IMG/VR virus record: IMGVR_UViG_3300017950_001860
Coordinates: 24,137 to 88,136 of that record
Reading direction: 5' to 3' (one strand)
Length of the DNA stretch: 64,000 nt
Origin: a virus
Positions 23 to 28,087 of the stretch are shown piece by piece (position 1 is the stretch's first letter; every line of letters starts with the position of its first letter). Made by a program: the position numbers and the translations under genes. The notes beneath the pieces were generated by a model. It saw only the letters and a program-made list of their open reading frames with translations, was not told the DNA's origin and ran no database searches.

Positions 23-23
23 G

Positions 24-4083: not shown

Positions 4084-4108
4084 ACTTGTTAAATTTAAAG
4101 GAAAAGAA

Positions 4109-4780
4109 TTGTTTAACAATATTGCATACTTGCCAATCGACATAGAAGTTGATTTACCTAACGAATCTGAAATATTAGAACATTTTCATGCAATAGGAGC
4201 TATTTCAGATCACATGCCGTGTGCTAGTGGATTATGGAAAACTTATCCTATATTTGGAAGAATGCTAAGAGACGAATGGAATGACGTCGATATATATCAA
4301 TACCATAAAAAACATTCAAGTGTATTAATGGATAGCATTGGACAATACTACGATAGTTTTGATACTAAATTTCCGCAAATTGCTTCCGTTATAGATCAAT
4401 TACCGTATAAACAACTAAGTTTAGTAATGGCATTAGAACAAACAAGTGATGTACCGATTCATAAAGATAGAGAAGATTTTGAAATAGTCGACGATGATAC
4501 AAAATTATTAGACCCAAAGCGTTATAATATACTACTTACAAAACACGAATACAAAAGTTTTTTTCTTTCTGAAAATGATAACGGTGATAAAATTTATCCT
4601 AAAATAGATAAAGGTAATCCTGTGTTTTGTTTATCACACGACAAATACTATCACGGTGCTACAATGGCTGGGCCAGGAAAGGTCATGGTAGCAATCGGTG
4701 GAATAATTGATGTGGAAAAACATAATGCGCTATTAGAACAAAGTTTTAACAAATTTAAAGATCAATCTATTACTTTTTGA
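4109..4780 (+). CDS. 2-oxoglutarate/Fe(II)-dependent oxygenase-like protein
   Basis: Resembles aspartyl/asparaginyl beta-hydroxylase-type and related cupin-fold oxygenases. The iron-binding facial triad can be proposed as H118 and D120 (IHKDRED) with a distal His at 182 (KYYHGATM) or 177; a PKRYNILL strand follows the HxD as in that family. Such enzymes hydroxylate or oxidise a side chain or small molecule using O2 and 2-oxoglutarate. The start is TTG 4109, supported by AAAGGAAAAG at 4097-4106. The 3' end overlaps the convergent methyltransferase gene by 19 bases, so no room remains for a terminator. Substrate unknown. Confidence 0.6.
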   Translation: MFNNIAYLPIDIEVDLPNESEILEHFHAIGAISDHMPCASGLWKTYPIFGRMLRDEWNDVDIYQYHKKHSSVLMDSIGQYYDSFDTKFPQIASVIDQLPYKQLSLVMALEQTSDVPIHKDREDFEIVDDDTKLLDPKRYNILLTKHEYKSFFLSENDNGDKIYPKIDKGNPVFCLSHDKYYHGATMAGPGKVMVAIGGIIDVEKHNALLEQSFNKFKDQSITF

Positions 4781-5364
4781 CCAATAAGCATAAATCTTTT
4801 ATACTTTTCAGTTTGCAACTCTGCTTTCCATGTAACATAAATTTTACTCATTTCTACGAAGTCTTCTAAGTCAGTAGCACATCTTATATGCTCATCTAAA
4901 TCAAAATAGTCGTTACTCTGTAATACTATCATAGCCTGTTCTGGTATGTTACTTAACCAAGTTTCATACTGCTGTTGATTAATATGTTCACAACTTGTGT
5001 TGATTACTAAATGTGCATCGTACTTGTAGTTGCACATGTCAGCGGTTACTGCTTTGAATTTGCCTTCCATTTCATAACGCTTGTTTACAGTGTTTGCAAT
5101 TTCTTCGCAAGTAGGATCTATATCAACGCTAATAATACTTTTAATATCCGGACGAGCATTAAAAAGAATACTTGCCAACACTCCGTTCCACCCTCCGAAT
5201 ATTACTATATCTTTTAAACCTATGTACCAATTGTTTAAATGATCACTAAGCCAAACTTTACTTCGAACTTGTCCTTTCCAAAAACTTTCGAGTGTGCGAT
5301 ATCTATCTTCGCTATTACGGATTGCATCCATCCAAAACAATACATCTTCTATTTCAACTTTCAT
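4762..5364 (-). CDS. Class I SAM-dependent methyltransferase
   Basis: Last gene of the long minus-strand cassette. Rossmann-type methyltransferase features: motif I IVIFGGWNG (G57, G58, G61), acidic end of strand 2 in VDID (about residues 80-83), TADMCN near 108-113 and VINTSCEH near 120 as the post-II/motif IV region. The product is about 200 residues, a single compact catalytic domain with no obvious target-recognition domain, so a small molecule, sugar or peptide substrate is more likely than DNA. It starts with an ATGA overlap with the upstream radical SAM gene, which suggests linked action. Substrate unknown. Confidence 0.7.
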   Translation of the reverse strand: MKVEIEDVLFWMDAIRNSEDRYRTLESFWKGQVRSKVWLSDHLNNWYIGLKDIVIFGGWNGVLASILFNARPDIKSIISVDIDPTCEEIANTVNKRYEMEGKFKAVTADMCNYKYDAHLVINTSCEHINQQQYETWLSNIPEQAMIVLQSNDYFDLDEHIRCATDLEDFVEMSKIYVTWKAELQTEKYKRFMLIGQKVID

Positions 5365-6377
5365 ATTTTTACCTTAGGAATCTTTGAGTCAGCACTGCTT
5401 ACACAAGTATCAGTAACACATTTAGATGGTGCCTTAAACAGCGTAAAACCGTCTTGTAGTGTGCCTAACGGTTCTTCACTACAACTATAACTCCGCTTTA
5501 CTTCATTACCTCTTATAACGCATCCTTGATATCCTGCATTACAAGTCCATCCTTTAAACTTATTAAAACCAAAGGCATTGAATCGCTCGGCTTGATCAAC
5601 ATTATATATGTTACCTGCATCATCTTGTAATTCTACTTGGTATAAAGGAATTATTTTTTTATATCTATCTGGGATTCTTTGGGGGAATCCTGTTTGCATC
5701 TGTCTAAGTTGGCTTGGTGTATATCCATGTACCACGAAGGAGGCAGTGGGGTCGGATTGTGGTTTGAGAGTGACATTAATACCTCGGGCGGCAAATCGTT
5801 CACAGCGTTCGTAAAGTTCCTCAAACCTTTCTGGCACCATGACTTGATTGATTGTAACAAATACTTCATTATCAGCTAATAAGAGACACTTATCTCCAAA
5901 CTCCTGTTCATTAGCAAACTCAGCGTGGTAACTCGCTGTGATGCTTTTTCTTTGCAGTGTGTCTGTGTTAAGTATCCACTTGTTCCACCATTTCACACCT
6001 GGTGATAGATTTGTGGTCATATGAATACTTTGGTATTCGGGTGCTGTATCCCTACAGTAATGATCTATGATCTCCCCAAAGTATTTATACGCTGTAGGCT
6101 CGCCTCCGCTGAACGAAAAATGAAAATCTGTAAAACCGTTATCTCTTGCCTGTGCCTTGATACTATCTAGTGTGTGTAAGTACAATTCTAGATCTTGGTG
6201 GTCAGGGGTACTAGATCTAGCGTATGGCCAGCAATAACTGCATGAATAATTACAAAATCTAGCCAGTATCCAAGAAACTGTGAAAAGATGGCTCTTTAGG
6301 AGTGTCTTCTGTCCAAATTGGGTAATTTTATCCCAGGGTATTGTTTGAAAATTGTTCATACAACCAATCAAAATCAT
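5361..6377 (-). CDS. Radical SAM protein with C-terminal cysteine-rich segment
   Basis: Radical SAM core with FCNYSCSYCW (C42, C46, C49) and SFSGGEPT near residue 98. The C-terminal part has scattered cysteines (WTCNAGYQGC, SYSCSE, SKCVTDTC) in the place and pattern of SPASM/twitch auxiliary cluster domains. SPASM proteins usually modify peptides or carbohydrates. A second ATG at 6359 is an equally good start; neither has a strong ribosome site. It overlaps the upstream gene and is followed through ATGA by the methyltransferase. Substrate unknown, but a methyltransferase partner and glycan-enzyme neighbours point to a sugar or surface molecule. Confidence 0.8.
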   Translation of the reverse strand: MILIGCMNNFQTIPWDKITQFGQKTLLKSHLFTVSWILARFCNYSCSYCWPYARSSTPDHQDLELYLHTLDSIKAQARDNGFTDFHFSFSGGEPTAYKYFGEIIDHYCRDTAPEYQSIHMTTNLSPGVKWWNKWILNTDTLQRKSITASYHAEFANEQEFGDKCLLLADNEVFVTINQVMVPERFEELYERCERFAARGINVTLKPQSDPTASFVVHGYTPSQLRQMQTGFPQRIPDRYKKIIPLYQVELQDDAGNIYNVDQAERFNAFGFNKFKGWTCNAGYQGCVIRGNEVKRSYSCSEEPLGTLQDGFTLFKAPSKCVTDTCVSSADSKIPKVKI

Positions 6378-7014
6378 TTATTCTACGCAAATCTTGCGGT
6401 GATTGTGCGTGTTTTTCTCCGTATTCTCTGCCTTCTTGGGCGCCGCGTTTTGCTTCATTTCTATAAAGTGCATCTGAAATAGGATTTAGCCACGCCGCCA
6501 ATCGGTCTTCAGTTTCAATATTAAGTTGTCCTTGTATAGACTTACTTGATAATTTTGCACATTCTCTAAATGCACTTTTCCAAGTGTTAAACGGATCTGT
6601 ATTAAATGCAGTAATGTTACTTATTTCGTTCATTACTCGAAAATTGTCGCTAATACTTGTAGTCATGTCAGGTTTACTTGTATCCATGTTTATTGTCATA
6701 CGTCTAGGAAAAAGTTTTACTCCGCCGTAGCCGTACTCTAAACCATTTATAGGATTCTTACTGCGCCAAACGTGTACATGATCTAACTGATGATCTGGAA
6801 CTTCATAATCAAAATTAAAGGAATCTAAAACCTGTGCATCACCGTCAACAATCCAAAACATTTTAGTAAAACATTTCTTTGCAGCAGCAATGTGTGCCTG
6901 ATGTATTCCTTTTACTCCGTCAACAGGCTTAGTCATAGGAAATCGTTCTTTTAGTGCAGCATAATTTTCAGCAGCATTAGGTTCTTTATAACTTATAAAA
7001 ACAATGTCATACAT
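6328..7014 (-). CDS. Putative glycosyltransferase (GT-A-like), paralogue of 20051 gene
   Basis: Begins YDIVFISYKEPNAAENYA and carries IVDGDAQV near residue 57, a DxD-like motif typical of nucleotide-sugar-binding GT-A enzymes. The block LDHVHVW...NPINGLEYGYGG has a clear counterpart in the protein encoded at 20051-20980 (LDHSVVSW...NVINGLVYGNGG), so the two are paralogues, this one about 80 residues shorter at the C-terminus. I infer a transferase acting on a glycan; no direct substrate evidence. The in-frame TTG at 7017 precedes the more likely ATG at 7014. Confidence 0.5.
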   Translation of the reverse strand: MYDIVFISYKEPNAAENYAALKERFPMTKPVDGVKGIHQAHIAAAKKCFTKMFWIVDGDAQVLDSFNFDYEVPDHQLDHVHVWRSKNPINGLEYGYGGVKLFPRRMTINMDTSKPDMTTSISDNFRVMNEISNITAFNTDPFNTWKSAFRECAKLSSKSIQGQLNIETEDRLAAWLNPISDALYRNEAKRGAQEGREYGEKHAQSPQDLRRINDFDWLYEQFSNNTLG

Positions 7015-7294
7015 CAAATATCCAGTCAGCTTTATCGTCTACCCACACATCATAATGAGGTTTTTGCATCCACAAATTATGATACTTAACTCCCCAAGAA
7101 AACAACTGTTCTTTAGTTAATGCTGTCCAGTCTATACCTGAATTAGCTCCTCGGGCTGTCCAATAAACTATTGTATGTCCGTCCATATATAATTCGTTAA
7201 TCTTAGTTATATGTTCGTAGTTAGGTTTTGAGTTATAGTAATCACTGTCTTTAGTGTAGCATATTGTTCCGTCAATGTCAACTACATATTTCAT
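7007..7294 (-). CDS. Small HAD-superfamily phosphatase-like protein
   Basis: Compact 95-residue HAD protein: motif I VVDIDGTI (D6, D8), motif II-like YWTARG with the Thr, and a motif III/IV segment QKPHYDVWVDDKAD providing Lys and the paired Asp. The family dephosphorylates small metabolites; similar short HAD proteins occur in capsule and LPS gene clusters. Beside a HldE-like kinase and nucleotidyltransferase it could remove the phosphate from a sugar bisphosphate before activation, the GmhB role, although it is much shorter than GmhB (about 190 residues). That role is inference. Confidence 0.65.
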   Translation of the reverse strand: MKYVVDIDGTICYTKDSDYYNSKPNYEHITKINELYMDGHTIVYWTARGANSGIDWTALTKEQLFSWGVKYHNLWMQKPHYDVWVDDKADWIFDV

Positions 7295-7650
7295 TTTTGA
7301 CTATCTCCTTTGGCAACTCTGTAATTATCTTCAACACTGTCTGGTGTACTAACCTCTACTAGTGTACCTGCTTCTAAACAAATTATTTGATGCGGTAGCA
7401 ATGGAGGATTATGCCACGAATCTCCTACACGTAATTCATGTACCTCTATATCAGCTGTTCTAGTATCAATCGTACGGACTTCAAAATGTCCTGATAGTAC
7501 ATGCCAAGTTTCGTCCTTTTCTCGATGAAAATGCATACTAAACTTTGCACCTGTGTTAAAATTTAATAACTTACCGCAGTATAAGTCGTTAGTAGCAAAT
7601 ATTAATTCACTACCCCAACCCTTTTCTACATGTCCTTTTAGTCTTTGCAT
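7291..7650 (-). CDS. Cupin-fold protein (sugar-phosphate isomerase-like)
   Basis: Single-domain cupin of 119 residues. Metal-binding motif 1 is MHFHREKDETWHVLSG (His, His, Glu, then His), and motif 2 contains PPLLPHQIICLE. The start (VEKGWGSELIF) and the DETWHV segment recall type II mannose-6-phosphate isomerase/GDP-mannose pathway cupins often found in polysaccharide loci. It is joined by short overlaps to the sugar kinase upstream and the HAD gene downstream, so a sugar-phosphate substrate is likely. Exact reaction unknown. Confidence 0.65.
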   Translation of the reverse strand: MQRLKGHVEKGWGSELIFATNDLYCGKLLNFNTGAKFSMHFHREKDETWHVLSGHFEVRTIDTRTADIEVHELRVGDSWHNPPLLPHQIICLEAGTLVEVSTPDSVEDNYRVAKGDSQK

Positions 7651-8435
7651 ATTTCTTCCAATCTCGGAGCATATACGCCTCTATGTTGTACAGAAATTTG
7701 GCTAGACTTTATTGCAAATTCTATTGCCTTTTCTTTATTATCAGTTAACATATAATATGTAACAAAGGCTGCAAAAAAACTATCTCCTGCACCGGTTACA
7801 TCGGCTATTTCTATTGGTTCTACATGATGAGTAGATGTTGTTTTACCATTTTCTATAACAAGCACATCTTTGTCAGCTCGGGTTACAACTAAACTTTCTG
7901 CTTCTGATATAGCATCATTATACTCATGTTCGTTTATTTTTACTATACAATTTCTAAATCTTGCAAGATCAGGTTTCTTAGTATCAATAAATATCGGAAC
8001 AGTTGCATTATTAGTTATTTCTTCTATTAAATCATAAGGAACTAACCCTTTGTCATAATCTGGTATTACTATACAGTCATATACGCCAGCATACGACAAC
8101 TTTACTTCTTGACTCTTAACCTTTTCATCAACTCTGTAAACTTGCCTATAGGATCCTTTTTCAATATACCTATGTTTGTTTTCTACAACATAAGTTTGCA
8201 AATTAATATTCTTTACGCCCAATGCTTTAAAGTTTTCTGCAACATTGTAACTCATGCCGTATGCACTTTCAGTATACATAAGATCAAAAATAGGCACAGG
8301 TGCTTCTTGGCTTATACGAGTTACTTTGCCGTAATGATTTAGATCACAACAACCGTCACCTATTATTAATACGTTCAATGACCTTTGTTGAAGAATATCT
8401 TGCATCTCTTTCAAAGAAAAACAGTTCTTTTGCAT
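7638..8435 (-). CDS. PfkB-type sugar kinase, HldE kinase-domain-like
   Basis: Resembles the kinase half of HldE/RfaE, which phosphorylates heptose-7-phosphate at C1 in ADP-heptose synthesis. The segment VLIIGDGCCD...RISQEAPVPI (residues about 19-50) corresponds to the GD..LD...RISPEAPVP signature, and ADVTGAGDS (about 211-219) carries the PfkB catalytic Asp218. The usual PGGAANVA loop is altered to AYGMSYNVA, so the sugar specificity may differ. The start is ATG 8435, preceded by AGGAAG; it overlaps the nucleotidyltransferase gene by 80 bases. In HldE both activities sit in one chain; here they are two genes in reversed order. Confidence 0.75.
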   Translation of the reverse strand: MQKNCFSLKEMQDILQQRSLNVLIIGDGCCDLNHYGKVTRISQEAPVPIFDLMYTESAYGMSYNVAENFKALGVKNINLQTYVVENKHRYIEKGSYRQVYRVDEKVKSQEVKLSYAGVYDCIVIPDYDKGLVPYDLIEEITNNATVPIFIDTKKPDLARFRNCIVKINEHEYNDAISEAESLVVTRADKDVLVIENGKTTSTHHVEPIEIADVTGAGDSFFAAFVTYYMLTDNKEKAIEFAIKSSQISVQHRGVYAPRLEEICKD

Positions 8436-8751
8436 ATTCGCTTCCTATAACTCTTTTATTTACATAGTCTGATCCAACTATCATTAAATCTGGACCATAT
8501 TCTTTTACAGTACTTATGAGCTCGTCGTCTGTTCCAAACAAACTAACTTCGTCAATGAATTTAATGCATTCTAGCATACGCCTGCGTATGTCTTGGTTAT
8601 TAACAGGTCTGTCGAAACCTTTGTTTACTTTTATCCTCTCGTCAGTATCTATTGCTACTTTTAAATAGTCGCCTTGGGATTTTGCATATTCAAATAATGC
8701 CATGTGTCCCGGATGCAGTATATCAAAAGTTCCGTTTACAAAAATTTTCAT
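8356..8751 (-). CDS. HldE nucleotidyltransferase-domain-like protein
   Basis: Cytidylyltransferase-fold enzyme that would join a sugar 1-phosphate or polyol phosphate to a nucleotide. It has the HxGH motif in GTFDILHPGH (H13, H16), KGFDRPVNNQDIRRRML in the position of the HldE KG-RPVN segment, and YSSTKVIERI as the C-terminal STT-like motif. These fit the adenylyltransferase half of HldE better than TagD-type glycerol-3-phosphate cytidylyltransferase, but nucleotide choice cannot be read from sequence alone. It lies between the kinase gene and the E1 beta-like gene in one overlapping run. Confidence 0.8.
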   Translation of the reverse strand: MKIFVNGTFDILHPGHMALFEYAKSQGDYLKVAIDTDERIKVNKGFDRPVNNQDIRRRMLECIKFIDEVSLFGTDDELISTVKEYGPDLMIVGSDYVNKRVIGSEYAKELFFFERDARYSSTKVIERINNR

Positions 8752-9269
8752 ACAGAATATAATTGCGGATATTCTAACATTAGATGCATGCCGCCCTTCT
8801 CGTATGCGTTTTTATATACATCAAATATCTGTTCGCTAGATGTAAATTCATAAAATGTTGTGTTTGGACATAACGACTTAAATTGTTCAAAATAATTACC
8901 CTTATGTTGATGTCCGGGATCTAATGGCTCATCGGCGCCTTTGCCTACTCTAATAATAACCGTAGCTGTGCTTCCTGTCATCAGTTCATACTTATCTATA
9001 TGGTTAACAAGTTGATTTGTTGCACTTATTAAGAAGTCCCATCTAGGATAAATGGTAACTACTTTCATTCCGGTCATTGCCATACCTAGACTTATCCCCA
9101 TTTGAACTTCTTCCATTACTGGAGTTTCTATCATTTTATCTTTGTTGACATTATCGAGTGTAGCACTCATTGGATTACCAGGAAAAACAATTTGTTGTCC
9201 GATAAACTTTGTATCATTTTTATCACCTAAAAAGGTCATTGCCTTTGTTAGTTCTTCTTTATAACTCAT
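8748..9269 (-). CDS. ThDP enzyme E1 beta-like subunit (pyrimidine-binding domain only)
   Basis: Matches the pyrimidine-binding domain of 2-oxoacid dehydrogenase E1 beta/transketolase enzymes: ETPVMEEVQMGISLGMAM (about residues 48-65) holds the Glu (E53) that activates thiamine diphosphate, followed by IYPRWDFLISATNQLVNH. The protein is 173 residues, against about 325 for E1 beta; the C-terminal transketolase domain is absent. The partner PP domain is probably the E1 alpha-like protein at 15448-16077, about 6 kb downstream in the same operon. No E2 or E3 subunit is present here, so a carboligase or decarboxylase reaction making an unusual sugar is more likely than energy metabolism. Confidence 0.7.
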   Translation of the reverse strand: MSYKEELTKAMTFLGDKNDTKFIGQQIVFPGNPMSATLDNVNKDKMIETPVMEEVQMGISLGMAMTGMKVVTIYPRWDFLISATNQLVNHIDKYELMTGSTATVIIRVGKGADEPLDPGHQHKGNYFEQFKSLCPNTTFYEFTSSEQIFDVYKNAYEKGGMHLMLEYPQLYSV

Positions 9270-10176
9270 TTTGATAAATTCCTTGTTTTATGTTAACATG
9301 TAGTAACGGCGAAAACGACGGTAAATTAGTAAACGGCTGTAACAAATTTCTATCTTCTATAGTTTTAATAACGTTTTCAGCCATTACATGATGGCACAAC
9401 ATTGATGGATGGTCATCTAAGGGCGGTTGATTAAAATAGTCATAATCGGATCTTATTGTTAATTCTTGATTACCAGGTTGATGTTCGTCCATCATGTCTG
9501 CCATGCTTTGGTATTCTATTCCTTTATAAGTCAATGTCATTAACCGTTCATTCATCCAAGGATTATTTCTAATCCATTCTAAATTTTCATTTGGCCATGA
9601 TAGTAACAGTGTAGGTATACCCTTATCTTCACAAGTGCGTAAAAAATGTTCTATAGGTCTTAGACTATAATCAATATACCATTTTACATAATCATCAGGT
9701 GTTTTGATATCATGTATCTTCATAAAACGTTTTAATTTAGGAATATCATTGTACAATTCATTAAAAGCAATACCCGGTCCTTCAAAAGCAATACAATCTC
9801 TATGAGGTTGAGTAAGTTGCATTACTACTAAACCAATATCTTCTAAAGGAATATCTGTCCTTCCGTGTCCATCCACAAAATTAGTATCACTAAAAAAACA
9901 GGTATTCCACCACTTTAAAATACTCTGATGACTGCCGCCGTTAACTCTATCTACTATTTCTGATGTATTAAAGTAATTTGCAACCAGTCTTGGAAATCTC
10001 ATTCTTGCAGCGTGTTCAATTTGTGTGTGATTTACTAGTCGGTGATCGTAGGTGTTCCACGGTTGTTCAACTATGCTAGGAAGTCCTGTATAATAATACA
10101 GACCTTGTCCCCAAGTAAAACTACATCCTGCAAATAAAATAGATTTATTTACTTTTTCTGTTTTTCGTTTTATCAC
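9259..10176 (-). CDS. SGNH/GDSL-like protein
   Basis: SILFAGCSFTWGQGL near residues 12-26 is the GxSxTxG block with its Ser nucleophile; near the C-terminus DDHPSMLCHHVMAENV gives the Asp/His block, although the Asp is two and not three residues before His. Between them VMQLTQPHRD may be the Asn/Gly-type block. The start is a GTG at 10176, decided by an AGGAGG ribosome site five bases upstream, inside the previous gene. Likely an esterase or acyltransferase-type enzyme acting on a glycan; substrate unknown. Paralogues are at 3137 and 16070. Confidence 0.6.
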   Translation of the reverse strand: MIKRKTEKVNKSILFAGCSFTWGQGLYYYTGLPSIVEQPWNTYDHRLVNHTQIEHAARMRFPRLVANYFNTSEIVDRVNGGSHQSILKWWNTCFFSDTNFVDGHGRTDIPLEDIGLVVMQLTQPHRDCIAFEGPGIAFNELYNDIPKLKRFMKIHDIKTPDDYVKWYIDYSLRPIEHFLRTCEDKGIPTLLLSWPNENLEWIRNNPWMNERLMTLTYKGIEYQSMADMMDEHQPGNQELTIRSDYDYFNQPPLDDHPSMLCHHVMAENVIKTIEDRNLLQPFTNLPSFSPLLHVNIKQGIYQNEL

Positions 10177-10600
10177 TTTGTCCTCCTTTCGGCCAACTTA
10201 TTTCCCAGTCTTTAAAATCTGCTGCTAAACAGTCTACTTTATAATCTTTTCTTCCACCAATTAGTTCTTGTATAATATTCTTACTTGTATTTCTAATTCC
10301 GTTCAGACCATGAGTAAGTTCAAGATTTCCTTCTTTTTCGCCTCTACGAAACTTTGATTCATTTTGCCAGATATGCAAATTCATTTGTGCGCAAACTATT
10401 ATAGCTCTAATAGTTTTTGCATCAACTACTGAATTATTTTCATCTAGTATAAGTTGTATGTCGTGTACAATATCATCAATCTCTTGTGCGTACTCGTCTT
10501 TGTATTCTGGTATAAAGACTTCTTTTAATTGTACAATAGAAAGTCTATCAATTAATTCACTTAGTGTTTGTAAATATCTTCTTTCTGATTTGTATGTCAT
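10145..10600 (-). CDS. Conserved-type helical protein of unknown function
   Basis: I do not recognise this protein with certainty. It is 151 residues, mainly charged and predicted helical by eye (SELIDRLSIVQLKEVFI; NLHIWQNESKFRRGE; NGIRNTSKNIIQELI). The pattern N-L-x-x-W-x-x-E-x-x-x-R followed by an N-x-x-R-N helix is reminiscent of DUF4254-type proteins of polysaccharide clusters, but this is only a visual resemblance. It lies between an SDR epimerase and an SGNH protein and overlaps both, so a role in the same glycan pathway is likely. Confidence 0.5.
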   Translation of the reverse strand: MTYKSERRYLQTLSELIDRLSIVQLKEVFIPEYKDEYAQEIDDIVHDIQLILDENNSVVDAKTIRAIIVCAQMNLHIWQNESKFRRGEKEGNLELTHGLNGIRNTSKNIIQELIGGRKDYKVDCLAADFKDWEISWPKGGQSDKTKNRKSK

Positions 10601-11529: not shown

Positions 11530-11534
11530 ATATT

Positions 11535-17307: not shown

Positions 17308-18673
17308 TTGCTTTTGCTTCCAAGAAATTTACAAAGTCTTTAGTTAAAGGCTCTGACTCGTAAATCTTTATTAAGTGCTCTCTATTGTGTTCTAAAATAT
17401 CTTGCATTTCCCAATACCATGTATATATTTCATCTTCGGACATTTCGCATAATCGTTTGACTTCTGAAACTATCATTTTTAAACGCTTGTGTGCAACTTT
17501 TTCATTATCATACGACTCGTCTATCCAAGGACTAAAAGTTTTAAATCCTAAATCTCTTAAATGCTGTAATGCACCCTTGAAAGAAAAGAAAAAGAAAGGA
17601 TGATAGTTTCCTATCGGTTTAAAAACTTTTTCAGTTAATGATTTATGATCTCCATGATAGTATGTTTCTGTGCATATATAAAAATAACTATTTCTATAAG
17701 GTTCTCGTGTTCGATCAGTCCATGCACTTACAGTATTCATAGTAGTATCGGGCTCGTCGGCAAGTTTTTTTGGAAATAAATTAACCAATGACTCTGTTTC
17801 GACATCGTAATCTAAACTCCATTCAATCTTAACATGTTTTAACATTTGATCATTTAGCGAGGTTTTTTCAGATAGATAACTCCAATCACCGCGATCTAAA
17901 ATTTGTTCACAATATAAAGAATACAGAAGTGCTTGTCGATGATTTCTAGGACTTTTTATTTTCATTAAAAATCTAAAAGGACGTTTTCTACTTTTTTCTA
18001 ACTCTGAATCCCATCGACCAGTTTTTGAATAATATTTACTACTGTTCCACATAACAAACGGCCAATCACGCACTTGAATCTTTCGTTCATGGGGTTCAAA
18101 CCATTCATCGTATATCTTATGGCCATTATGTGTATTAAACACTAAAATAATTTGACTCGGTGGAATATAGGACGATTCTAAACATTTATGTAAATTTTCA
18201 TATTCATGTTTTTCGATATAATTTTCCTGAGCTAAATCTAGAATTATAGTACATTTTTTGTTTTGAGCATCTTCTAATGCTTCTTGCGACATATACTTCC
18301 AAAAATAATTACCATTAAGTTTTGAAAATTGCCTAACTCCATGTGCTGCAAACTGATCTAAATGAGGACTTATCTTAACAACATAAAAATAATGACTACA
18401 CTTTTGTTTTCCTTCGAATAATGAAGTATGTTTTATACTAGTTACTTCTTCTAAAGCATTTAAATTTGTTACTGTCCAACTGTTAGGCCAGTCTCCTAAC
18501 TGATTATTAAATATCTGTCTACTAATATTAGATTCGCTAGGGTCAGTATAGGCGTTAAATCCGTTGCTTATATTATGTTGAGAGTGCATGTAATTCAACA
18601 CAGCATGATTACTTTCTAAAGCATTAGGTAAAAAATATCCCGGAAAAACATAGTCATATAAAAAGTATATCAT
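17297..18673 (-). CDS. Putative glycosyltransferase-like protein (EK-motif family)
   Basis: Third member of the family with 11535 and 14134, and the clearest one: SLTEKVFKPIGNYHPFFFF is followed by LRDLGFKTFSPWIDESYD near the C-terminus. The N-terminus YFLYDYVFPGYFLPNALE resembles FDKWVNGIALPNGLHQ of the 14134 protein only loosely. Function inferred as transfer of a sugar onto a glycan. The start at 18673 overlaps the upstream stop as ATGA, the usual junction in this operon; an in-frame ATG at 18688 would add five residues. Confidence 0.45.
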   Translation of the reverse strand: MIYFLYDYVFPGYFLPNALESNHAVLNYMHSQHNISNGFNAYTDPSESNISRQIFNNQLGDWPNSWTVTNLNALEEVTSIKHTSLFEGKQKCSHYFYVVKISPHLDQFAAHGVRQFSKLNGNYFWKYMSQEALEDAQNKKCTIILDLAQENYIEKHEYENLHKCLESSYIPPSQIILVFNTHNGHKIYDEWFEPHERKIQVRDWPFVMWNSSKYYSKTGRWDSELEKSRKRPFRFLMKIKSPRNHRQALLYSLYCEQILDRGDWSYLSEKTSLNDQMLKHVKIEWSLDYDVETESLVNLFPKKLADEPDTTMNTVSAWTDRTREPYRNSYFYICTETYYHGDHKSLTEKVFKPIGNYHPFFFFSFKGALQHLRDLGFKTFSPWIDESYDNEKVAHKRLKMIVSEVKRLCEMSEDEIYTWYWEMQDILEHNREHLIKIYESEPLTKDFVNFLEAKANEL

Positions 18674-20061
18674 ATAGTATTTTTCCATTTATGATATTCT
18701 TCTTCCATTTCAGGAAACGTTTTAAGAAAATTAGTTCCACGTCTTCTATCATGCTCATCAACAAATCTAATTAAATTTTTTCTATGATTAATTACATGGG
18801 GTTTTGTTTCGTGTTCTTCGTCGATGTATGTTGTTATTTCATATATACGTCTAAACTTTTCGGCTTCCCAATTAAAGAATTTCCTATTAGCTGATTCGTA
18901 CCAGCCGTTGTTTTCTATGTTATCGTATACTAAAGAAACCTGATCATATATATATCTTCTAAACTTTGCAGGCATAATATCAACTGCTTGATATCCAGGA
19001 TGTCTCAAATAAGGAACATCAAGTATCATAGGCATGTGCTTAGCCTGCCAACCGCCGTATGTATCTTTAATTTCTAATATATCTTTAATAAGATTTTTAA
19101 AACTAAACAAACTTAAAAAGTTATATGTTGCCATATTAGTAAATGTACAATTTGGAACTTCAGTTAATACTTTGTTTATATTATCTAACCATTTGTTGTA
19201 GTCTAGTCCGTGTCTAATGTATTCTGCTTGTGCTCCTGTAGCTTCAGCACTTGTAAATATTTTAAATTTCTTAACCTTGCCTTCGCTACAGATTATTTTA
19301 ATTTTTTCCATAAAGCGATTAAACACTCCGTCTGGAACACACATATTACTGTTGACAGCAAACTCTAGGTCTGGTCTAGGATTTTCTATAAGATCGTCTA
19401 GTACTCGAAATGTATCTTTAGAAAGTAATGGCTCGCCGCCTGTAATACGGAAATGTTTGAGATCCTTTGATACATCGGGCCACCATTTCCAAAATGCTTC
19501 TACATAAGGATTGTAATCTTTATTTGGGATAGGCATAACACCTTGATCTTTAAGCCAATCAATACCGCCATGCGCAGTTGTAGTTGGATACGGCCCGTAT
19601 TTCTGAACTTCTTCCATCCATTTACTACTAACTTGTGGTGAACAGTATGAGCATTTGAAATTACACACACTACTAAAACTTACTTCTAAATAACTAGGAT
19701 TAACATTATCATCCCAAGGTTTTTGAATAATTTCTGGAATATAAGATTCAGCCCAGGGTTCTTTGGACTTATATGTTCTATCACTTATTTCGTTATTGTC
19801 TTCTACACGCCAACAATAGTCACACTCTTTAGGCCTATCACCTTCGAGCATTTGCTTACGTTGTAACTTCTTAAATTTTGTATTATGTAATGCACTAGAA
19901 TTACCTTCTAATTCTTCAACAGGTATTTTGTGAGGTACTGGATGATGACAACTATGCGTCTGTCCGGTATGTAGGTGTAGTGTAACTTGTTTCCACTTAG
20001 CTACACAAAAACTGCAACTAACAGGATCTAGATTTTCTTTTTTCCATACTTCAGGTGTCAT
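18670..20061 (-). CDS. Radical SAM protein with N-terminal twitch-like domain
   Basis: Radical SAM core with VCNFKCSYC (C133, C137, C140) and RITGGEPLLS near residue 225. Before the core lie paired cysteines SCSFC (C16, C19), C38 and ECDYC (C80, C83), arranged as in N-terminal twitch radical SAM proteins that bind an extra iron-sulphur cluster ahead of the barrel. The segment CVAKWKQVTLHLHTGQTHSC is typical of that domain. Length 463 residues fits. The ATG at 20061 is preceded by GAGGATAATA; a TTG at 20073 is less likely. Substrate unknown; members are common in phage and surface-polysaccharide loci. Confidence 0.8.
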   Translation of the reverse strand: MTPEVWKKENLDPVSCSFCVAKWKQVTLHLHTGQTHSCHHPVPHKIPVEELEGNSSALHNTKFKKLQRKQMLEGDRPKECDYCWRVEDNNEISDRTYKSKEPWAESYIPEIIQKPWDDNVNPSYLEVSFSSVCNFKCSYCSPQVSSKWMEEVQKYGPYPTTTAHGGIDWLKDQGVMPIPNKDYNPYVEAFWKWWPDVSKDLKHFRITGGEPLLSKDTFRVLDDLIENPRPDLEFAVNSNMCVPDGVFNRFMEKIKIICSEGKVKKFKIFTSAEATGAQAEYIRHGLDYNKWLDNINKVLTEVPNCTFTNMATYNFLSLFSFKNLIKDILEIKDTYGGWQAKHMPMILDVPYLRHPGYQAVDIMPAKFRRYIYDQVSLVYDNIENNGWYESANRKFFNWEAEKFRRIYEITTYIDEEHETKPHVINHRKNLIRFVDEHDRRRGTNFLKTFPEMEEEYHKWKNTI

Positions 20062-20980
20062 TATTATCCTCAATTAAAAATGGTTCTTTGTTTATTCTTT
20101 TTGGCACTTGATAAACTGTTTTAAAAAATTTACTTTGTTGATCACTTAGTGGAGATATTGATATCGGAATATTTAATTCTTTTATCAAAGTTTTACCTAA
20201 ATCCTGTATTGTAGACATTAGTGTTTCATCAGTAACTTCTAATTGGTTCCAAAAATTATTCAAATACGAAAAGTCACGTACATTTATAAAGTTCCAGTCT
20301 GTACACATTGTCATATACAACCCCTGTCTTGCACCAAATATCGCCCATAGTCCGTTTTCTACATCTGCACCGATCATTTGCCAAATATAAAGTCTATGTA
20401 AATTTTGCCAATATCCGTCATACAGTTTACTTGTATCAGGCTTCATTCCCTGATCAAGTGACATCTTAACACCTTCACGAAAACCAGCACGCCATGCTTG
20501 CTGTGGAGTTGCATTATTATACACATCACTAAAAGTAGTATTCATTTGGATATAGCGCATGTCCCAACAAAAGTCAACTTGACCTTGCGGATTTCCTGGT
20601 TCAGCATTTTCATGTGTACGCATATTGAGAACATAACTCTTTGGCCAACATTTAAGTCCGCCATTTCCATATACTAATCCGTTTATAACATTTTTTCCAC
20701 ACCAGCTAACAACACTATGATCTAACTGTGCTTCAGGTTTAAAATTTATAATTTGTTGTATATAATTAGCATATACTATATTGTCAGCATCTACAGTTAT
20801 AAATCTATCAGTTTCGCTTAATTCTGCGCAAGCCTTGTGTGCAGCATCCGAGCCTTCTACTCCGTGGACACGTTTAGCCCATGGTATTTTACTACACAAG
20901 TCTGCATAGTTTTTTTCTGCGTTGGGCTCGTCGTAACTTAAAAAGATAACATCATAGTCTGCTACTTTAATTGAATTCAT
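20051..20980 (-). CDS. Putative glycosyltransferase (GT-A-like)
   Basis: Paralogue of the 6328 protein. It starts YDVIFLSYDEPNAEKNYADL, has ITVDADNIVYA near residue 66 as a DxD-like sugar-nucleotide motif, and the block LDHSVVSWCGKNVINGLVYG. The additional C-terminal third (about 200-309) contains several aromatic residues and no recognised motif. I infer glycosyl transfer within the cassette pathway. Short overlaps on both sides show it is translated as part of the operon. Confidence 0.5.
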   Translation of the reverse strand: MNSIKVADYDVIFLSYDEPNAEKNYADLCSKIPWAKRVHGVEGSDAAHKACAELSETDRFITVDADNIVYANYIQQIINFKPEAQLDHSVVSWCGKNVINGLVYGNGGLKCWPKSYVLNMRTHENAEPGNPQGQVDFCWDMRYIQMNTTFSDVYNNATPQQAWRAGFREGVKMSLDQGMKPDTSKLYDGYWQNLHRLYIWQMIGADVENGLWAIFGARQGLYMTMCTDWNFINVRDFSYLNNFWNQLEVTDETLMSTIQDLGKTLIKELNIPISISPLSDQQSKFFKTVYQVPKRINKEPFLIEDNNDT

Positions 20981-21864
20981 TTTACTACCTCATATCTATA
21001 ATTACGATAAAGTCGTGGTGTAAATATCGAAAGATTTTCTTCTTCTGATTTGTACATGTACGGAAATATGCACTTTGTCTTGTCTATTAAATCTTTAATT
21101 GGTATTTCAATAGTCCGAATTAGTATGTTAGGATCATCGGGCTCAGTGATAAAAAACATAACAACCTTATCAGTAATTTCCTTGTCTAACAATTTTTCAT
21201 TTACAACAATATCTTTAGTGCTATAAAATTGCCATTGTTTTGCAATATCATTTTTAAAAATATATACACTAGTGTCATCAGACGAATTTATCATATACAA
21301 CTGATTGTCAACTAAAACTTTATGTCCTTTTCTATTTTTTCGTGCCATTAAAGGAATAGATTTTTTATCTACTGATACTATATTTTCAAGAAATAGTTCA
21401 GCAGTGTCTAACGTATCTTCAACAGTAAAATCTTTATGAAGTTTGTATACATTATTATTAGCCCAAACGTGATCGCCTTTATAAAACAAATCAGTTGCGT
21501 TATGTTTTCTAAAATCTATACCAACGTATATCTTTTCTAGGTTGTCAAATGTATTACCTTTAAATGGAATTTGATAAAGGTAATCTTCAACTGATTTTAA
21601 AAAACTAGTTGCAACCTCTCTAGCGATTACGTATTCTCTAAGTTGATGATTATATTTTACTACATATTCGCTAATTTTTGCTCTACCTAAAAAATATTCT
21701 TTTACTTCGTCATGATTAACTTCAATAACATCATAATCGCTATCTATAGGGTTATTTGTAATGTCAAAGACTTCGCCATGTGTTTTTTCAAAATACACAT
21801 AACTTATATCTCCTTGTGCTATTAAACTGTTTAATTTTGTTATTGCATTAATTAAATTAGACAT
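20977..21864 (-). CDS. Unknown protein with a carbohydrate-binding-like module
   Basis: No family recognised for most of its 295 residues. One segment, YKGDHVWANNNVYKLHKDFT near residue 128, matches the Y-x-x-G-x-x-V-x-x-N-x-x-(Y/F/W) pattern of CBM5/12-like modules, also found twice in the next upstream gene product and about five times in the giant virion protein. That suggests binding to a glycan or to the same virion surface. It overlaps the 21857 gene by 8 bases. Function inferred only from this module and from its place among glycosyltransferase-like genes. Confidence 0.45.
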   Translation of the reverse strand: MSNLINAITKLNSLIAQGDISYVYFEKTHGEVFDITNNPIDSDYDVIEVNHDEVKEYFLGRAKISEYVVKYNHQLREYVIAREVATSFLKSVEDYLYQIPFKGNTFDNLEKIYVGIDFRKHNATDLFYKGDHVWANNNVYKLHKDFTVEDTLDTAELFLENIVSVDKKSIPLMARKNRKGHKVLVDNQLYMINSSDDTSVYIFKNDIAKQWQFYSTKDIVVNEKLLDKEITDKVVMFFITEPDDPNILIRTIEIPIKDLIDKTKCIFPYMYKSEEENLSIFTPRLYRNYRYEVVK

Positions 21865-23290
21865 AAGTTATTTCCTTGTATTTGTTAAATACTTTTTCGA
21901 CAAAGTCTTTTTCGGTATAATGCAATATACCATTTTGTACAAAATTTCCTAACTTTAAATTACAATTGTCATCTAAATATACGCCTAATTTATCTTGCCA
22001 CCTATCTGGCGGATTGTTCCAGCCTTGTATCATCGGCTTTAAGTGTGTAAATGTAAGAATATTGTTTTTCTTATTTGTAACTTCTTCTTCTATATTAAGT
22101 ATTTTTATTGCAATTGCTGCTGCGACATCTATACTCAAATGTCCGGGTGTTTGATTAGGTAGAAACTCTTTCCAAAACTCTTTCCAATTCTTACAAATAA
22201 TTTCTAGTAAATTATAAAAGTTTTTTGCTAGATCTGATTGTTTAAAATAATGTACCCCAACGTATGTGTTAGGCAAATAGTTTTCGGTAAATGTCTTTCG
22301 GTAAAAATCATTTTCAATTACGTTATTATTAAATGTTCTTACTTCAGATGTAAAGAATAAATCTGAATCACTTAACATATTCCACGTACTAGTAAGATCA
22401 TTAAACACCATCATATCAGTGTCCATTACAATTGTTTCATCATACGGACTACAGTGATAGATTTTCCATCTATTTTCAACTTTCCAAATAGTTGTTTCAG
22501 CATCATCACCAAAGGGAATAGGAATAATTTTGTCAAACAATATCTCATAATCTGCAGGAACAATATCGTTAGTAATAATTGATATTTTTTCATTAGGACT
22601 ATTTTTACTTAGAGACAGTGCTAATAACACAGCCTGTTTAACATAGTCTACTTGTAGTACAGGATCAACTGTATATAAATTATTATAATAACACACTAAA
22701 TTGCCCGGCCGTGGGTTTTCGAATACTAAACTTTTGTTACTGTCTGCATACAATTTAACTTCTTGATCAATAATAGGCTCGTAATCGTCTTCAGTAAACT
22801 CACTATTTGCTGGTACGTCAACTAAAGCACGCCACACTCTGTTATTATGCCAAACATGTTGACCTGCTAAATGTAAAACTTCTTTATACCAAATATCAAT
22901 GTTAACTCCTTCAAATTGAGGAGTCAGTGTATATAATTGTGTTTCATCTTCTTTACGCACTTCGTAAATATTATTATCAGATAATACAATATTATTCTTT
23001 TTACACAAGTGATGTACAACAAGATCGTTTTTGTCATAGTGTATATAGACTTCAGGTATTACTAATTTTACATCATCATAATTAAATGTTTTAGACTGTA
23101 AACAAGTATTAACAAATCTAAAGACTTTATTATCATACCAAACATGCTGACCAGATATATAGTCGAGATCCGGATACCATATATCTACATGAATACCTTT
23201 GTATTGCTCTTCGAGGAAATGATTAGGTATTTGTCTCGATACTCTTTCATAACTATTTTGTGCTAAAACTATTATACCTCTATTGCTCAT
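21857..23290 (-). CDS. Glycosyltransferase-like protein with two N-terminal CBM5/12-like modules
   Basis: The N-terminal half carries two related modules, IWYPDLDYISGQHVWYDNKV and IWYKEVLHLAGQHVWHNNRV, each followed by an aromatic strand. The C-terminal half (about residues 210-477) contains SPYDETIVMDTDMMVFNDL, a DxD motif like that of the 23280 protein and of GT8/GT-A enzymes, and NQTPGHLSIDVAAAIAIK further on. I infer a glycosyltransferase with built-in glycan- or virion-binding modules. The modules resemble those in the giant baseplate-region protein of this same phage. Confidence 0.5.
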   Translation of the reverse strand: MSNRGIIVLAQNSYERVSRQIPNHFLEEQYKGIHVDIWYPDLDYISGQHVWYDNKVFRFVNTCLQSKTFNYDDVKLVIPEVYIHYDKNDLVVHHLCKKNNIVLSDNNIYEVRKEDETQLYTLTPQFEGVNIDIWYKEVLHLAGQHVWHNNRVWRALVDVPANSEFTEDDYEPIIDQEVKLYADSNKSLVFENPRPGNLVCYYNNLYTVDPVLQVDYVKQAVLLALSLSKNSPNEKISIITNDIVPADYEILFDKIIPIPFGDDAETTIWKVENRWKIYHCSPYDETIVMDTDMMVFNDLTSTWNMLSDSDLFFTSEVRTFNNNVIENDFYRKTFTENYLPNTYVGVHYFKQSDLAKNFYNLLEIICKNWKEFWKEFLPNQTPGHLSIDVAAAIAIKILNIEEEVTNKKNNILTFTHLKPMIQGWNNPPDRWQDKLGVYLDDNCNLKLGNFVQNGILHYTEKDFVEKVFNKYKEITYV

Positions 23291-24122
23291 TAATTACTCT
23301 TTCTAGACTAAATTTATTCATTATATGAACACTTTTTCCTTTAGTACTTAATGCTAGATATTCTCCTAAGTATTTTGGTCGTTCAACCAAAAATTGCATA
23401 TAATCATCATTAATTTCTAAACATATATCTTTATCAATTGTATAATAATGCGTACCTGGTAATTCTTGTACACAACTATCAAGTCCATCAAAACCATTAA
23501 GAATATGTGCTGCAATACTAAATGCAAAGTCATTTCTAAATAACGGAGAGTCAATTTGATACACTCGCCTGTAATGAGGCCAATTATCTTGTATGTGTGA
23601 AATTAGATCAAAGAATATTTTATTTGATTCAGTCTTTGTAAAATATACTACAGTTGCCCAATAAAAATCAACACCACACTCACTTATGTACTTAAACTCT
23701 GCTTCACTACGTGTTCCTGATAAATCTTTTGCATTTTTAAACATCATTAAATCATATTGACTGTCAAAACAGGATTTAAATAAATCATTAGAAATAATAT
23801 AATCTGTATCTAATAACAATGTGCTATCGTATGGAGATAGATCATATGCTTGTGCTCTGCCTGCATTTTTAAAAGGAAGTTTTTTGTGTGTTAAAGTACC
23901 ATCAAAGTAAAATCTATTATTCTGGACAACTTCCCATGCTGTAGGAATAATCTTATCAAATATTCCTCGGTCAAAACTTTCTACTAAGTAGTCTGGAGAA
24001 TCAGTAACTATACTAGTAGGAATATTTAAATACTTCTGTATACGTTTTGCTAAAAATTGTGCTTGATTTACATAATCAAGCGATCCGTTATTTCTTGCAA
24101 ATAGTAATGCGCCTTTAGTCAT
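23280..24122 (-). CDS. Glycosyltransferase-like protein (GT-A, DxD)
   Basis: Single-domain relative of the C-terminal half of the 21857 protein: KGALLFARNNGSLDYVNQA at the start, then AYDLSPYDSTLLLDTDYIIS near residue 95-110 with the DTD motif for a metal-bound nucleotide sugar. RNDFAFSIAAHILNG parallels LSIDVAAAIAIKILN of its relative. Likely transfers a sugar; acceptor unknown. It overlaps both neighbours by 8-11 bases. Confidence 0.55.
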   Translation of the reverse strand: MTKGALLFARNNGSLDYVNQAQFLAKRIQKYLNIPTSIVTDSPDYLVESFDRGIFDKIIPTAWEVVQNNRFYFDGTLTHKKLPFKNAGRAQAYDLSPYDSTLLLDTDYIISNDLFKSCFDSQYDLMMFKNAKDLSGTRSEAEFKYISECGVDFYWATVVYFTKTESNKIFFDLISHIQDNWPHYRRVYQIDSPLFRNDFAFSIAAHILNGFDGLDSCVQELPGTHYYTIDKDICLEINDDYMQFLVERPKYLGEYLALSTKGKSVHIMNKFSLERVINEQ

Positions 24123-24468
24123 TTTCTATTAATTTTTCTACCGAACGTTTTTTACCCAATGCTACATAACTGTTATGATAATCGTTAGAAGCTTCAAAGT
24201 AAATATCTAAAATATCTTCTAAAAACTTAGACAAGTCTGGTATCATTACTGGACGATCGTTGTCATCAGTCAAAACAACGTCAGTATCTGCACCTTGCTT
24301 TACTAGTAAATCTATAAATGTAATTAACTCTCGTGTAATAGTAAACTGAGAACCTTCAGTAAAATATATTAAACTTTCTTTAAACTTTTCTTGAAGAATA
24401 CGTTTTTGATTATTGATCGTAACCATATACTTGCTAAAGTCAAGGGCTTTTTCTAATCTTTCGTCCAT
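24115..24468 (-). CDS. Conserved T4-like phage protein of unknown function
   Basis: First gene of the cassette operon. The likely product is 117 residues from ATG 24468, decided by an AGGAGGT ribosome site at 24478-24472. It is a charged helical protein (DERLEKALDFSKYMVTINNQ; FLEDILDIYFEASNDY) that I recall as a conserved type in marine T4-like phages, without known function. It is not obviously a sugar enzyme, so it may be a core phage gene to which the cassette was attached. A strong sigma70 promoter lies directly upstream. Confidence 0.65.
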   Translation of the reverse strand: MDERLEKALDFSKYMVTINNQKRILQEKFKESLIYFTEGSQFTITRELITFIDLLVKQGADTDVVLTDDNDRPVMIPDLSKFLEDILDIYFEASNDYHNSYVALGKKRSVEKLIEND

Positions 24469-24488
24469 ACTACCTCCTGTTAGTGTTA

Positions 24489-24517
24489 AGTATAACACAG
24501 ATTGTTTAGTAAGTCAA
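24489..24517 (-). promoter_or_regulatory. Sigma70 promoter of the cassette operon
   Basis: Minus strand: TTGACT (24517-24512), 17-base spacer, TATACT (24494-24489), in the only gap between the fibre genes and the cassette. The start point would be near 24482, giving a leader of about 14 bases that contains the AGGAGGT ribosome site. No late-promoter octamer overlaps it, so host RNA polymerase would read the cassette before gp55 accumulates. Confidence 0.75.
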
Positions 24518-25482: not shown

Positions 25483-25518
25483 TGGGACTCCTGTCAAACT
25501 ATATCATTATATATAGTT

Positions 25519-25526
25519 TATTTACT
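25519..25526 (-). promoter_or_regulatory. Weak late promoter-like octamer
   Basis: Minus-strand AGTAAATA followed by AACTATATATAATG, six of eight matches to TATAAATA with the TAAATA core kept, in the 30-base gap before the structural gene starting at 25482. Confidence 0.3.
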
Positions 25527-26513: not shown

Positions 26514-26524
26514 TTATCTTTCCT

Positions 26525-28048: not shown

Positions 28049-28073
28049 ATTCTGTACCCCTAAATGCTATTAT

Positions 28074-28081: not shown

Positions 28082-28087
28082 GTATCT

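Follow-up and report, generated by a model that had tools for sequence, protein, structure and literature searches.

The locus considered here raises the question of what a phage does with a long run of sugar-chemistry genes next to its tail-fibre genes, and to which acceptor the product would be attached. The run lies in a 64,000-nucleotide stretch (hereafter the window), which comprises bases 24137-88136 of the 88,136-base IMG/VR virus record IMGVR_UViG_3300017950_001860. As the original prediction had it, 24 collinear open reading frames (ORFs), here w01 to w24, occupy the minus strand, mostly joined by overlaps of 4-20 bases (16 of 23 junctions); they span positions 4762-24498, the fibre-side end having been placed earlier at 24468 through start-codon choice only. 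The prediction had taken them for one 20-kb operon by which the phage makes and attaches a modified sugar. Making and attaching a sugar is supported by the nucleotide-sugar enzymes, by two predicted glycosyltransferase folds, and by relatives in which this site is occupied by different nucleotide-sugar cassettes. A single operon is not borne out: judged from gene order, the run falls into three parts, a core adjoining the fibre genes (w24-w19), a swappable nucleotide-sugar cassette (w18-w04) and a far end (w03-w01), within a longer island that extends past the run. As to the acceptor, we tentatively propose, with somewhat less than even confidence, that the soluble enzymes make an unusual sugar and most likely attach it to a protein of the tail fibres or baseplate, so that the host-contact surface of the virion would bear a variable coat of glycans.

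A fibre-linked core and exchangeable cassettes

The genes of the run, from the fibre genes outward, are as follows.

w24, 24115..24498, minus: conserved small protein, 127 amino acids (aa); core, adjoins fibre genes
w23, 23280..24122, minus: 280 aa, related to w22 (28% identity over 201 aa), DTD motif; core
w22, 21857..23290, minus: 477 aa, glycosyltransferase-like (DxD), two CBM5/12-like modules, no Pfam match over cut-off; core
w21, 20977..21864, minus: 295 aa, partner protein, one CBM5/12-like module (iterated hidden Markov model, HMM, only), no NCBIfam or Pfam match; core, less conserved
w20, 20051..20980, minus: 309 aa, GT-A glycosyltransferase by predicted structure; core
w19, 18670..20073, minus: 467 aa, twitch-domain radical S-adenosylmethionine (SAM) protein, NF033640 336.6 bits (cut-off 170); core, near border of cassette
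w18, 17297..18688, minus: 463 aa, GT-B glycosyltransferase by predicted structure
w17, 16777..17307, minus: 176 aa, RmlC-type sugar epimerase, dTDP_sugar_isom 99.3 bits
w16, 16070..16780, minus: 236 aa, SGNH-like, GDSL E 0.009 (sub-threshold), GCSFT and DDSH motifs
w15, 15448..16077, minus: 209 aa, thiamine diphosphate (ThDP) enzyme, E1-alpha-like half, E1_dh 44.3 bits
w14, 14134..15447, minus: 437 aa, w18 paralogue (GT-B type), 30% identity over 275 aa
w13, 12632..14134, minus: 500 aa, B12-binding radical SAM protein, Radical_SAM 57.9 and B12-binding 37.6 bits
w12, 11535..12635, minus: 366 aa, no family match, lowest G+C of the run (26%)
w11, 10597..11529, minus: 310 aa, NAD epimerase/dehydratase of the short-chain dehydrogenase/reductase (SDR) type, Epimerase 113 bits, YAKTK
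w10, 10145..10600, minus: 151 aa, no Pfam match over cut-off
w09, 9259..10176, minus: 305 aa, SGNH-like, GCSFT motif
w08, 8748..9269, minus: 173 aa, ThDP enzyme, pyrimidine-binding half, Transket_pyr 29.2 bits (over cut-off)
w07, 8356..8751, minus: 131 aa, RfaE2-like nucleotidyltransferase, CTP_transf_like 60.4 bits, rfaE_dom_II 92.9 (cut-off 181.5), HPGH motif
w06, 7638..8435, minus: 265 aa, PfkB/RfaE1-like sugar kinase, PfkB 53.2 bits, rfaE_dom_I 99.6 bits (cut-off 345), GAGD motif
w05, 7291..7650, minus: 119 aa, cupin (sugar isomerase-like), Cupin_2 35.3 bits (over cut-off)
w04, 7007..7294, minus: 95 aa, HAD phosphatase-like, HAD_PNKP E 1.4e-4 (below cut-off)
w03, 6328..7017, minus: 229 aa, w20 paralogue (GT-A type), 40% identity over 169 aa; far border of cassette
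w02, 5361..6377, minus: 338 aa, radical SAM protein, PF04055 45.6 bits, CNYSCSYC; far-end module
w01, 4762..5364, minus: 200 aa, methyltransferase-like by glycine motif only, no Pfam or PHROG match; far-end module

The division into parts comes from a scan of IMG/VR with w19, of which the best 80 of at least 598 relatives, hence close ones, were kept. Grouping at 90% w19 identity gave 38 groups, 33 of them with at least 4.5 kb upstream. The core was scored as present when w20/w03, w22/w23, w24 and a fibre gene lay within nine ORFs, w21 not being required. By this rule fibre genes, w24, w22/w23 and w20 lie ahead of w19 in 26 of the 33 non-redundant loci; a w24 homologue occurs in 50 of the 80. 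Downstream of w19 the content changes from relative to relative. Some carry nucleotidyltransferase, cupin and aldolase-like genes, some a w14/w18-type gene with a UDP-glucose dehydrogenase, and some an inverted set with a fragment of a DegT-type aminotransferase, while others have the window's own set. Five loci have the core without any cassette (L080, L081, L083, L085, L088). In 12 of the 38 groups the gene after the cassette is w03, and w02 or w01 often comes next; w01 homologues recur after w03 in relatives. The original prediction had asked whether the genes would prove to be scattered, unrelated insertions in relatives; they do not, and the modules recur in order.

The cassette itself is, judged from its relatives, made up of two mobile sets. 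With w15 as the query, 34 loci were retrieved, or 26 (17 groups) after the near relatives of the window phage (L204-L210, L235) were removed. RmlC and GT-B genes are found in all 26, a second SDR in 24, a w11-type SDR in 20 and the ThDP-beta half in 20; RmlC, ThDP-beta, SDR and GT-B occur jointly in 20 of the 26 (14 of 17 groups). A w09-like gene is present in 18 of these loci and w10 in 11, where it often adjoins w11. The kinase, the nucleotidyltransferase and partly the cupin are separate from the w15 module in L249-L252 and together with it in L237. In L056, divergence is much higher in w10, w11, w13 and w17 than in the genes around them, a pattern that the swapping of tailoring alleles would produce.

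The run genes are maintained under purifying selection, since the ratio of nonsynonymous to synonymous divergence (dN/dS, by a simple Nei-Gojobori count) is low against the near relatives L056, L015 and L243: it is 0.03-0.15 in 21 of the 24 genes, w17 being saturated and w12 and w16 having no counterpart there (w12 was not seen in L056 or L243). Against the distant L051, it is 0.41 for w14 and 0.18 for w18, at dS above 1.4. Packing is tight throughout. Overlaps occur at 21 of the 23 junctions, the other two being a direct abutment and a gap of 5 bases; where the overlaps reach 50, 80 and 32 bases, starts may have been called too far upstream. The virion genes upstream of the run (24535-61040) lie in the same orientation, separated by no more than about 40 bases.

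Radical SAM genes on the fibre side

The fibre-side position of the radical SAM genes was studied with s30, a conserved gene beyond the fibre genes, as the anchor, so that loci were not selected by a radical SAM gene. The set comprised all 39 records of at least 34 kb among the best 80 loci of the s30 scan (33 groups after near-duplicates were merged). Radical SAM matches are present in 29 of the 39 records and 28 of the 33 groups, 215 matches in all; nine records have ten or more, the maximum being 21. All 150 matches listed (of the 215) lie on the fibre side of s30, and 130 of the 150 are on the s30 strand. These 150 come from 25 records (24 groups), four of the 29 records with matches falling outside the position test, and the sequence available in the 25 amounts to 1270 kb on the fibre side vs 1126 kb on the other; matches are not independent of one another. 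In the ten records without a match the fibre side is only 4.7-15.3 kb long, so many of them may be cut short.

The genes that flank the run in the window are these.

s25-s29, 24535..32340, minus: five virion genes upstream of the run, same direction
s30, 32340..32954, minus: conserved gene used as anchor, phrog_11259 (unknown function) 233 bits
giant virion protein, 32980..47151, minus: 4723 aa, phrog_10938 virion structural protein 1099.6 bits, five CBM5/12-like modules (CBM_5_12 E 5.6e-5, below cut-off)
two more island radical SAM genes, 21..3118, plus: 640 aa (B12-type, below cut-off) and 392 aa with an HMPTM zinc ribbon
SGNH-like 289-aa protein (by motif) and 223-aa protein (no Pfam match), 3137..4780, plus: convergent with w01

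Among s25-s29, three genes (26525-28048, 28088-29974, 29971-32340) have PHROG tail fiber or virion matches; the other two (24535-25497 and 25527-26513), with no family match, are called fibre-type by position and mutual similarity. The T4-type late promoter TATAAATA is depleted in the window (1-64000), with 6 copies found vs about 18 expected, and late control is without support because both minus-strand copies lie away from structural genes. The two plus-strand copies directly precede the genes at 3137 and 4109. A tRNA scan of the window found none.

Three further observations come from relatives. In the outer island of L009 (10123-14294), tandem proteins of about 175-235 aa resemble 2-oxoglutarate (2OG) oxygenases and lie beside a nitroreductase; two of them were scanned and had no Pfam match. 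In L010 (2873-5147), a class-III aminotransferase (144.9 bits) and a protein that by eye resembles an amidinotransferase, though it has no Pfam match, adjoin three paralogous radical SAM genes. A QueE-like ORF is found at 2569-3462 of L253, a near-identical 127.6-kb contig, with E 2e-5 to 7-carboxy-7-deazaguanine synthase and the motif CNFRCMNF, in which the third cysteine is apparently absent.

Enzyme classes and predicted folds

The classes first read from the letters fared differently under profile search. The PfkB/RfaE1-like kinase, RfaE2-like nucleotidyltransferase, cupin, SDR, RmlC and the two ThDP half-enzymes were confirmed. The HAD phosphatase is suggested by a match below cut-off, the two SGNH proteins by their GCSFT motif, with the sub-threshold GDSL match added for w16, and the methyltransferase (w01) kept its glycine motif but found no profile match. 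The glycosyltransferase calls hold by predicted structure for w20 and w18 and by homology for w03 and w14, with only a DxD in w22 and w23, and none has a Pfam match over cut-off. The count of three radical SAM proteins stands for the run (w02, w13, w19) but not for the whole record, which has 14 matches, all with the CxxxCxxC motif. Of these, w19 is just short of the Pfam radical SAM cut-off, but over the curated NF033640 one. The best NCBIfam match of w13 is HpnJ, at 135.9 bits vs a cut-off of 577.6; by NCBIfam, w13 and the 640-aa protein are as like small-molecule or lipid enzymes as peptide enzymes.

Both structure predictions were made with AlphaFold2 from alignments of viral relatives. 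The w20 model has a predicted local distance difference test score (pLDDT) of 89.9. Its best Foldseek match is ThuS/SunS (E 1.4e-4), and in VIA the N-terminal domain matches a GT-A-type fold (best Z 10.2, root-mean-square deviation 3.0, 137 residues aligned). The DxD is invariant across 34 w20 sequences, as it is across 14 of w03. The model points to a nucleotide-binding GT-A fold with a DxD; w20 is not placed in a finer family since many structure matches tie, nucleotidyltransferases included. The w18 model, with a pLDDT of 76.5 and 76 of 463 residues below 50, has trehalose-6-phosphate synthases as its best Foldseek matches (E 2.6e-4, probability 1.00), WaaG also being matched, with template-modelling (TM) scores of 0.34-0.41 in the best six rows; a GT-B fold is predicted. 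Because TM-scores in both Foldseek lists are 0.45 or less, only the fold class is claimed for either protein.

A proposed acceptor for the sugar

These assignments allow a pathway to be sketched. A sugar phosphate would be activated by w06, w07, w04 and w05, and a keto-sugar converted by w11 and w17; more speculatively, the split ThDP enzyme (w15/w08) would add or move a carbon unit. Radical SAM tailoring would be contributed by w13 and w19, and w09 and w16 may act on acyl groups. The sugar would then be attached by w14, w18, w20, w03 and probably w22 and w23, folds being predicted for two of these. The core would serve as a general attachment and tailoring unit, the cassette would determine the type of sugar and be exchanged between phages, and a tail-fibre or baseplate protein would be the acceptor.

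Three lines of evidence favour a virion acceptor: the absence of membrane proteins, the fibre-side placement, and a shared CBM5/12-like module. By hydropathy, none of 55 proteins of the run and neighbouring island has a membrane-like segment, which means that a flippase, polymerase, ligase, initiating transferase or Gtr-type system is not encoded among them; such segments are found in 9 of 1374 ORFs in the 80 loci vs 47 of 207 in 13 bacterial loci. The CBM5/12-like module, of 35-50 residues, has five copies in the giant virion protein and matches three w22 homologues directly. After HMM iteration the window's w22 shows two copies and its w21 one, and across the loci the module appears in 22 w22-type and 10 w21-type proteins; no further family was matched, and the partial giant proteins of the loci gave no match.

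The same findings bear on the usual alternative, remodelling of the host surface, in which the sugar would be built into a lipid-linked O-unit or lipid A-core and exported by the host, blocking superinfection or re-adsorption of progeny to debris. The lack of membrane-like segments in the 55 island proteins, the strict fibre-side placement and the shared strand of most listed radical SAM matches speak against it. However, the RfaE-type pair, RmlC, SDR and the UDP-glucose dehydrogenase of other cassettes are of surface-polysaccharide types, cellular relatives of island genes have GT2 and other transferase-like genes as neighbours, some phages carry w19 and cassette genes away from fibre genes, and host-surface modification is the published interpretation for both cyanophages and pelagimyophages, as given in the available parts of those papers (PMC7824862; PMC7029224). 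We regard it as doubtful, yet as a serious contender.

Several findings weigh against attachment to the virion. The core is missing by the rule in 7 of the 33 loci (in L059 for w24 alone). In 6 of the 80 loci (L049-L051, L057, L087, L089), or 4 of the 38 groups (L051, L057, L087, L089), the neighbour of the w19-type gene is a gene for an ATP-dependent DNA ligase, not a fibre gene; the ligase of L051 matches a solved chain at E 7e-167, the other five being assigned by cluster, and in L050 and L051 a large share of the window's sugar cassette accompanies it. Hence w19 and the cassette are mobile and able to work, or at least to sit, away from fibre genes in other phages. The ligase set or its neighbour is seen in 3 of the 17 w15 groups. 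The w15 module does not always come with radical SAM chemistry, a radical SAM gene of the set being present in only 14 of the 26 w15 loci. In bacteria, a neighbouring gene in L195 matches GT2 enzymes, and Rhodobacteraceae w20 homologues adjoin genes resembling, by eye, GT-B and GT28 transferases. Before iteration, the module domain in the window's w22 had an E of 0.034, and the SGNH protein p3 scored better over its whole sequence (E 0.0028), with no good domain. Host exporters could carry a phage-made unit out, and the same placement is read as host O-chain modification by the pelagimyophage authors in the available part of their paper (PMC7029224). An acyl desaturase-like ORF (L253:13810-14580; E 1.2e-9 to a solved acyl-CoA desaturase) lies just past the island's outer end, outside the membrane-segment scan. 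The ligase-linked relatives of w19 and the cassette and the bacterial relatives among glycosyltransferases lean away from the virion.

The ligase loci also touch a further alternative, that the sugar is placed on bases of the phage DNA. Soluble transferases that lack exporters would agree with it, the six loci have a DNA ligase gene next to w19, and a thymidylate synthase family is present in 3 of the 13 records searched, a set to which the window's own record belongs. However, neither the window's record nor the near-identical 127.6-kb contig has a match to that family (a weak point, both being incomplete), and hypermodification would leave the fibre-side placement unexplained; we consider it very improbable. 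Another alternative is a small metabolite assembled from sugar and amino-acid parts, as proposed for a second cluster of jumbo cyanophages in the available part of PMC7824862. The outer island has proteins that would suit it, of the aminotransferase, methyltransferase, nitroreductase and 2OG types. The presence of several GT-A and GT-B paralogues would, however, point to a macromolecular or glycan acceptor, and this too is a long shot.

Cultured relatives among jumbo phages

Attachment to the virion can be considered further in cultured phages. Among the matches listed for the baseplate wedge protein (15 of 80), the best-placed isolates are Phosso, Salicola SCTP-2, Atu_ph07 and the PA5oct group, all jumbo phages, at 33-35% identity; an identity as a pelagimyophage was dropped on this ground. 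One relative with the core (among 30 records hand-picked from the 80) is 364 kb long. The best explanation is a jumbo-type myophage with a long modification island, the run belonging to the fibre side of that island. Naming the host through contigs of metagenome-assembled genomes (MAGs) was tried and rejected: contigs with the phage's fibre and core genes (L175-L178, L180-L182, L184, L192, L194, L200) sit in bins of unrelated taxa, which makes MAG labels useless as a guide to the host.

The complete genomes of Atu_ph07 (Agrobacterium) and Phosso (Sinorhizobium) have four radical SAM matches each, all eight just past the fibre genes. Like the window, both have a baseplate wedge gene, a giant virion protein, an s30 homologue (52-53% identical), a fibre gene and a one-strand radical SAM run, a few extra genes aside. 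Unlike the window, the Atu_ph07 run has no nucleotide-sugar gene annotated, nor was one found in the six proteins searched (gp164, gp167 and gp169 lay outside the search), and the radical SAM proteins of both phages are only distantly similar to those of the window. The genome of Salicola SCTP-2 has no radical SAM match, a further point against the virion. A scan with the Atu_ph07 radical SAM protein gp171 retrieved its own record and one further contig.

The two runs have a feature that the window lacks. After the first, SPASM-type radical SAM gene of each comes a protein of about 300 aa (L094:26119-27009 and L093:30415-31335) whose C-terminus consists of three CHxS repeats and then SRSRR. 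These proteins have no family match; we read them as fibre-like. In Phosso the CHxS protein is number 289, with a radical SAM gene at 290 and a fibre protein at 292. The best NCBIfam matches of the SPASM protein are DynA and PapB, far below cut-offs, and in Atu_ph07 a JmjC_2 protein precedes its gene. A CHxS tail beside a SPASM gene could possibly be a core on a virion-associated protein, like that of a ribosomally synthesised and post-translationally modified peptide (RiPP). This raises the alternative that the radical SAM enzymes, with oxygenase-like island proteins, act on virion proteins like RiPP maturases, the sugar genes being a separate decoration. According to the available part of the Atu_ph07 paper, coding sequences 170-215 form one of the three clusters with most virion proteins detected by mass spectrometry, gp170 being unnamed in the main text as far as available (PMC6102473). 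However, the general rule that fibres carry Cys-repeat tails was rejected: in a scan of ORFs of at least 60 aa, no fibre protein of the marine loci had such a C-terminus, and of the three plus-strand hits outside Atu_ph07 and Phosso one was ATPase-like (L009), the others being ORFs of 149 aa (L089) and 62 aa (L160). The equal likeness of w13 and the 640-aa protein to small-molecule or lipid enzymes also counts against peptide modification, which we hold to be improbable.

The run has no related DNA in the isolate phage collection at megablast sensitivity, nor do 5 kb of the giant virion gene by blastn, and w20, w22 and w18 have no protein relatives there. Weak radical SAM protein matches link w19 to two Vibrio phage records and w13 to two records of one Streptomyces phage.

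Returning to glycosylation of the virion, one may suppose that this jumbo-myophage lineage keeps a fibre-modification island in which up to about 20 radical SAM enzymes and swappable sugar cassettes diversify the host-contact proteins chemically, so that the chemistry as well as the fibre sequence would set host range, as a viral counterpart of bacterial O-antigen loci. In this broad form the proposal is speculative and, on present evidence, unlikely.

Comparison with known systems

In pelagimyophages, according to the available part of PMC7029224, fibre genes share a hypervariable island with glycosyltransferases and cassettes of radical SAM genes, interpreted as modifying the O-chain. This host recognition cluster resembles the window in being a large hypervariable island in which a giant baseplate-type gene is followed by tail-fibre genes, and in having glycosyltransferases, rfaE-type genes and radical SAM cassettes. 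The window lineage differs in that its best-listed baseplate relatives (15 of 80 rows) are jumbo phages and that records have up to 21 radical SAM genes; the core w24-w19 and the borders at w19 and w03 are not described for pelagimyophages there. The neck family PF11649 was found in none of nine records and also in none of 14 controls, and hence is uninformative on a gp14 neck border.

The polysaccharide clusters of jumbo cyanophages (such as P-SSM2) include, as listed in the available part of PMC7824862, SDR, cupin, PfkB kinase, HIGH-type nucleotidyltransferase and several glycosyltransferase families, the same sugar-enzyme families as in the window. In contrast, 'radical SAM' does not occur in the main text of that paper, and a fixed fibre-side core and a split ThDP pair are not described in what is available of it.

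With the HldE pathway to ADP-heptose the window shares an RfaE1-like kinase, an RfaE2-like nucleotidyltransferase and a HAD-like phosphatase, but the scores of the first two, 99.6 vs 345 and 92.9 vs 181.5 bits, are far below the equivalog cut-offs, and a profile search found no match to the isomerase of the pathway among the 24 run proteins. The window does not appear to encode that pathway. Gtr-type O-antigen conversion combines a polytopic membrane flippase with transferases, and the window does not appear to be of this type either. Nucleotide-sugar enzymes together with glycosyltransferases, the mark of a phage surface-polysaccharide or lipopolysaccharide-type cluster, are present.

Cellular relatives fit a glycan pathway and keep host-surface modification alive. 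The w20 family occurs on Bdellovibrionota contigs (including L183, L185, L195, L196 and L198) with homologues of w01, w02, l09 and l10, w02 being 50-53% identical on four of them. In 6 of 8 such loci, among which L183 and L185 are almost the same, the w20 homologue has at least two of the radical SAM set within 10 kb. Unlike the window, these are bacterial contigs with GT2-type genes.

Thus phage sugar clusters are already known; the radical SAM arrays and the core-plus-cassette design appear to be new. Among the hits listed from an open-access library, titles and abstract beginnings showed no report of radical SAM arrays behind fibre genes. A large pool of uncharacterised radical SAM enzymes is indicated. 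Such clusters are usually read as remodelling the host surface, and a core free of membrane proteins behind fibre genes makes modification of the virion testable, with the cultured Atu_ph07 and Phosso, which have the same layout, as the entry point. If the virion is modified, fibre sequence alone would not predict receptor-binding chemistry.

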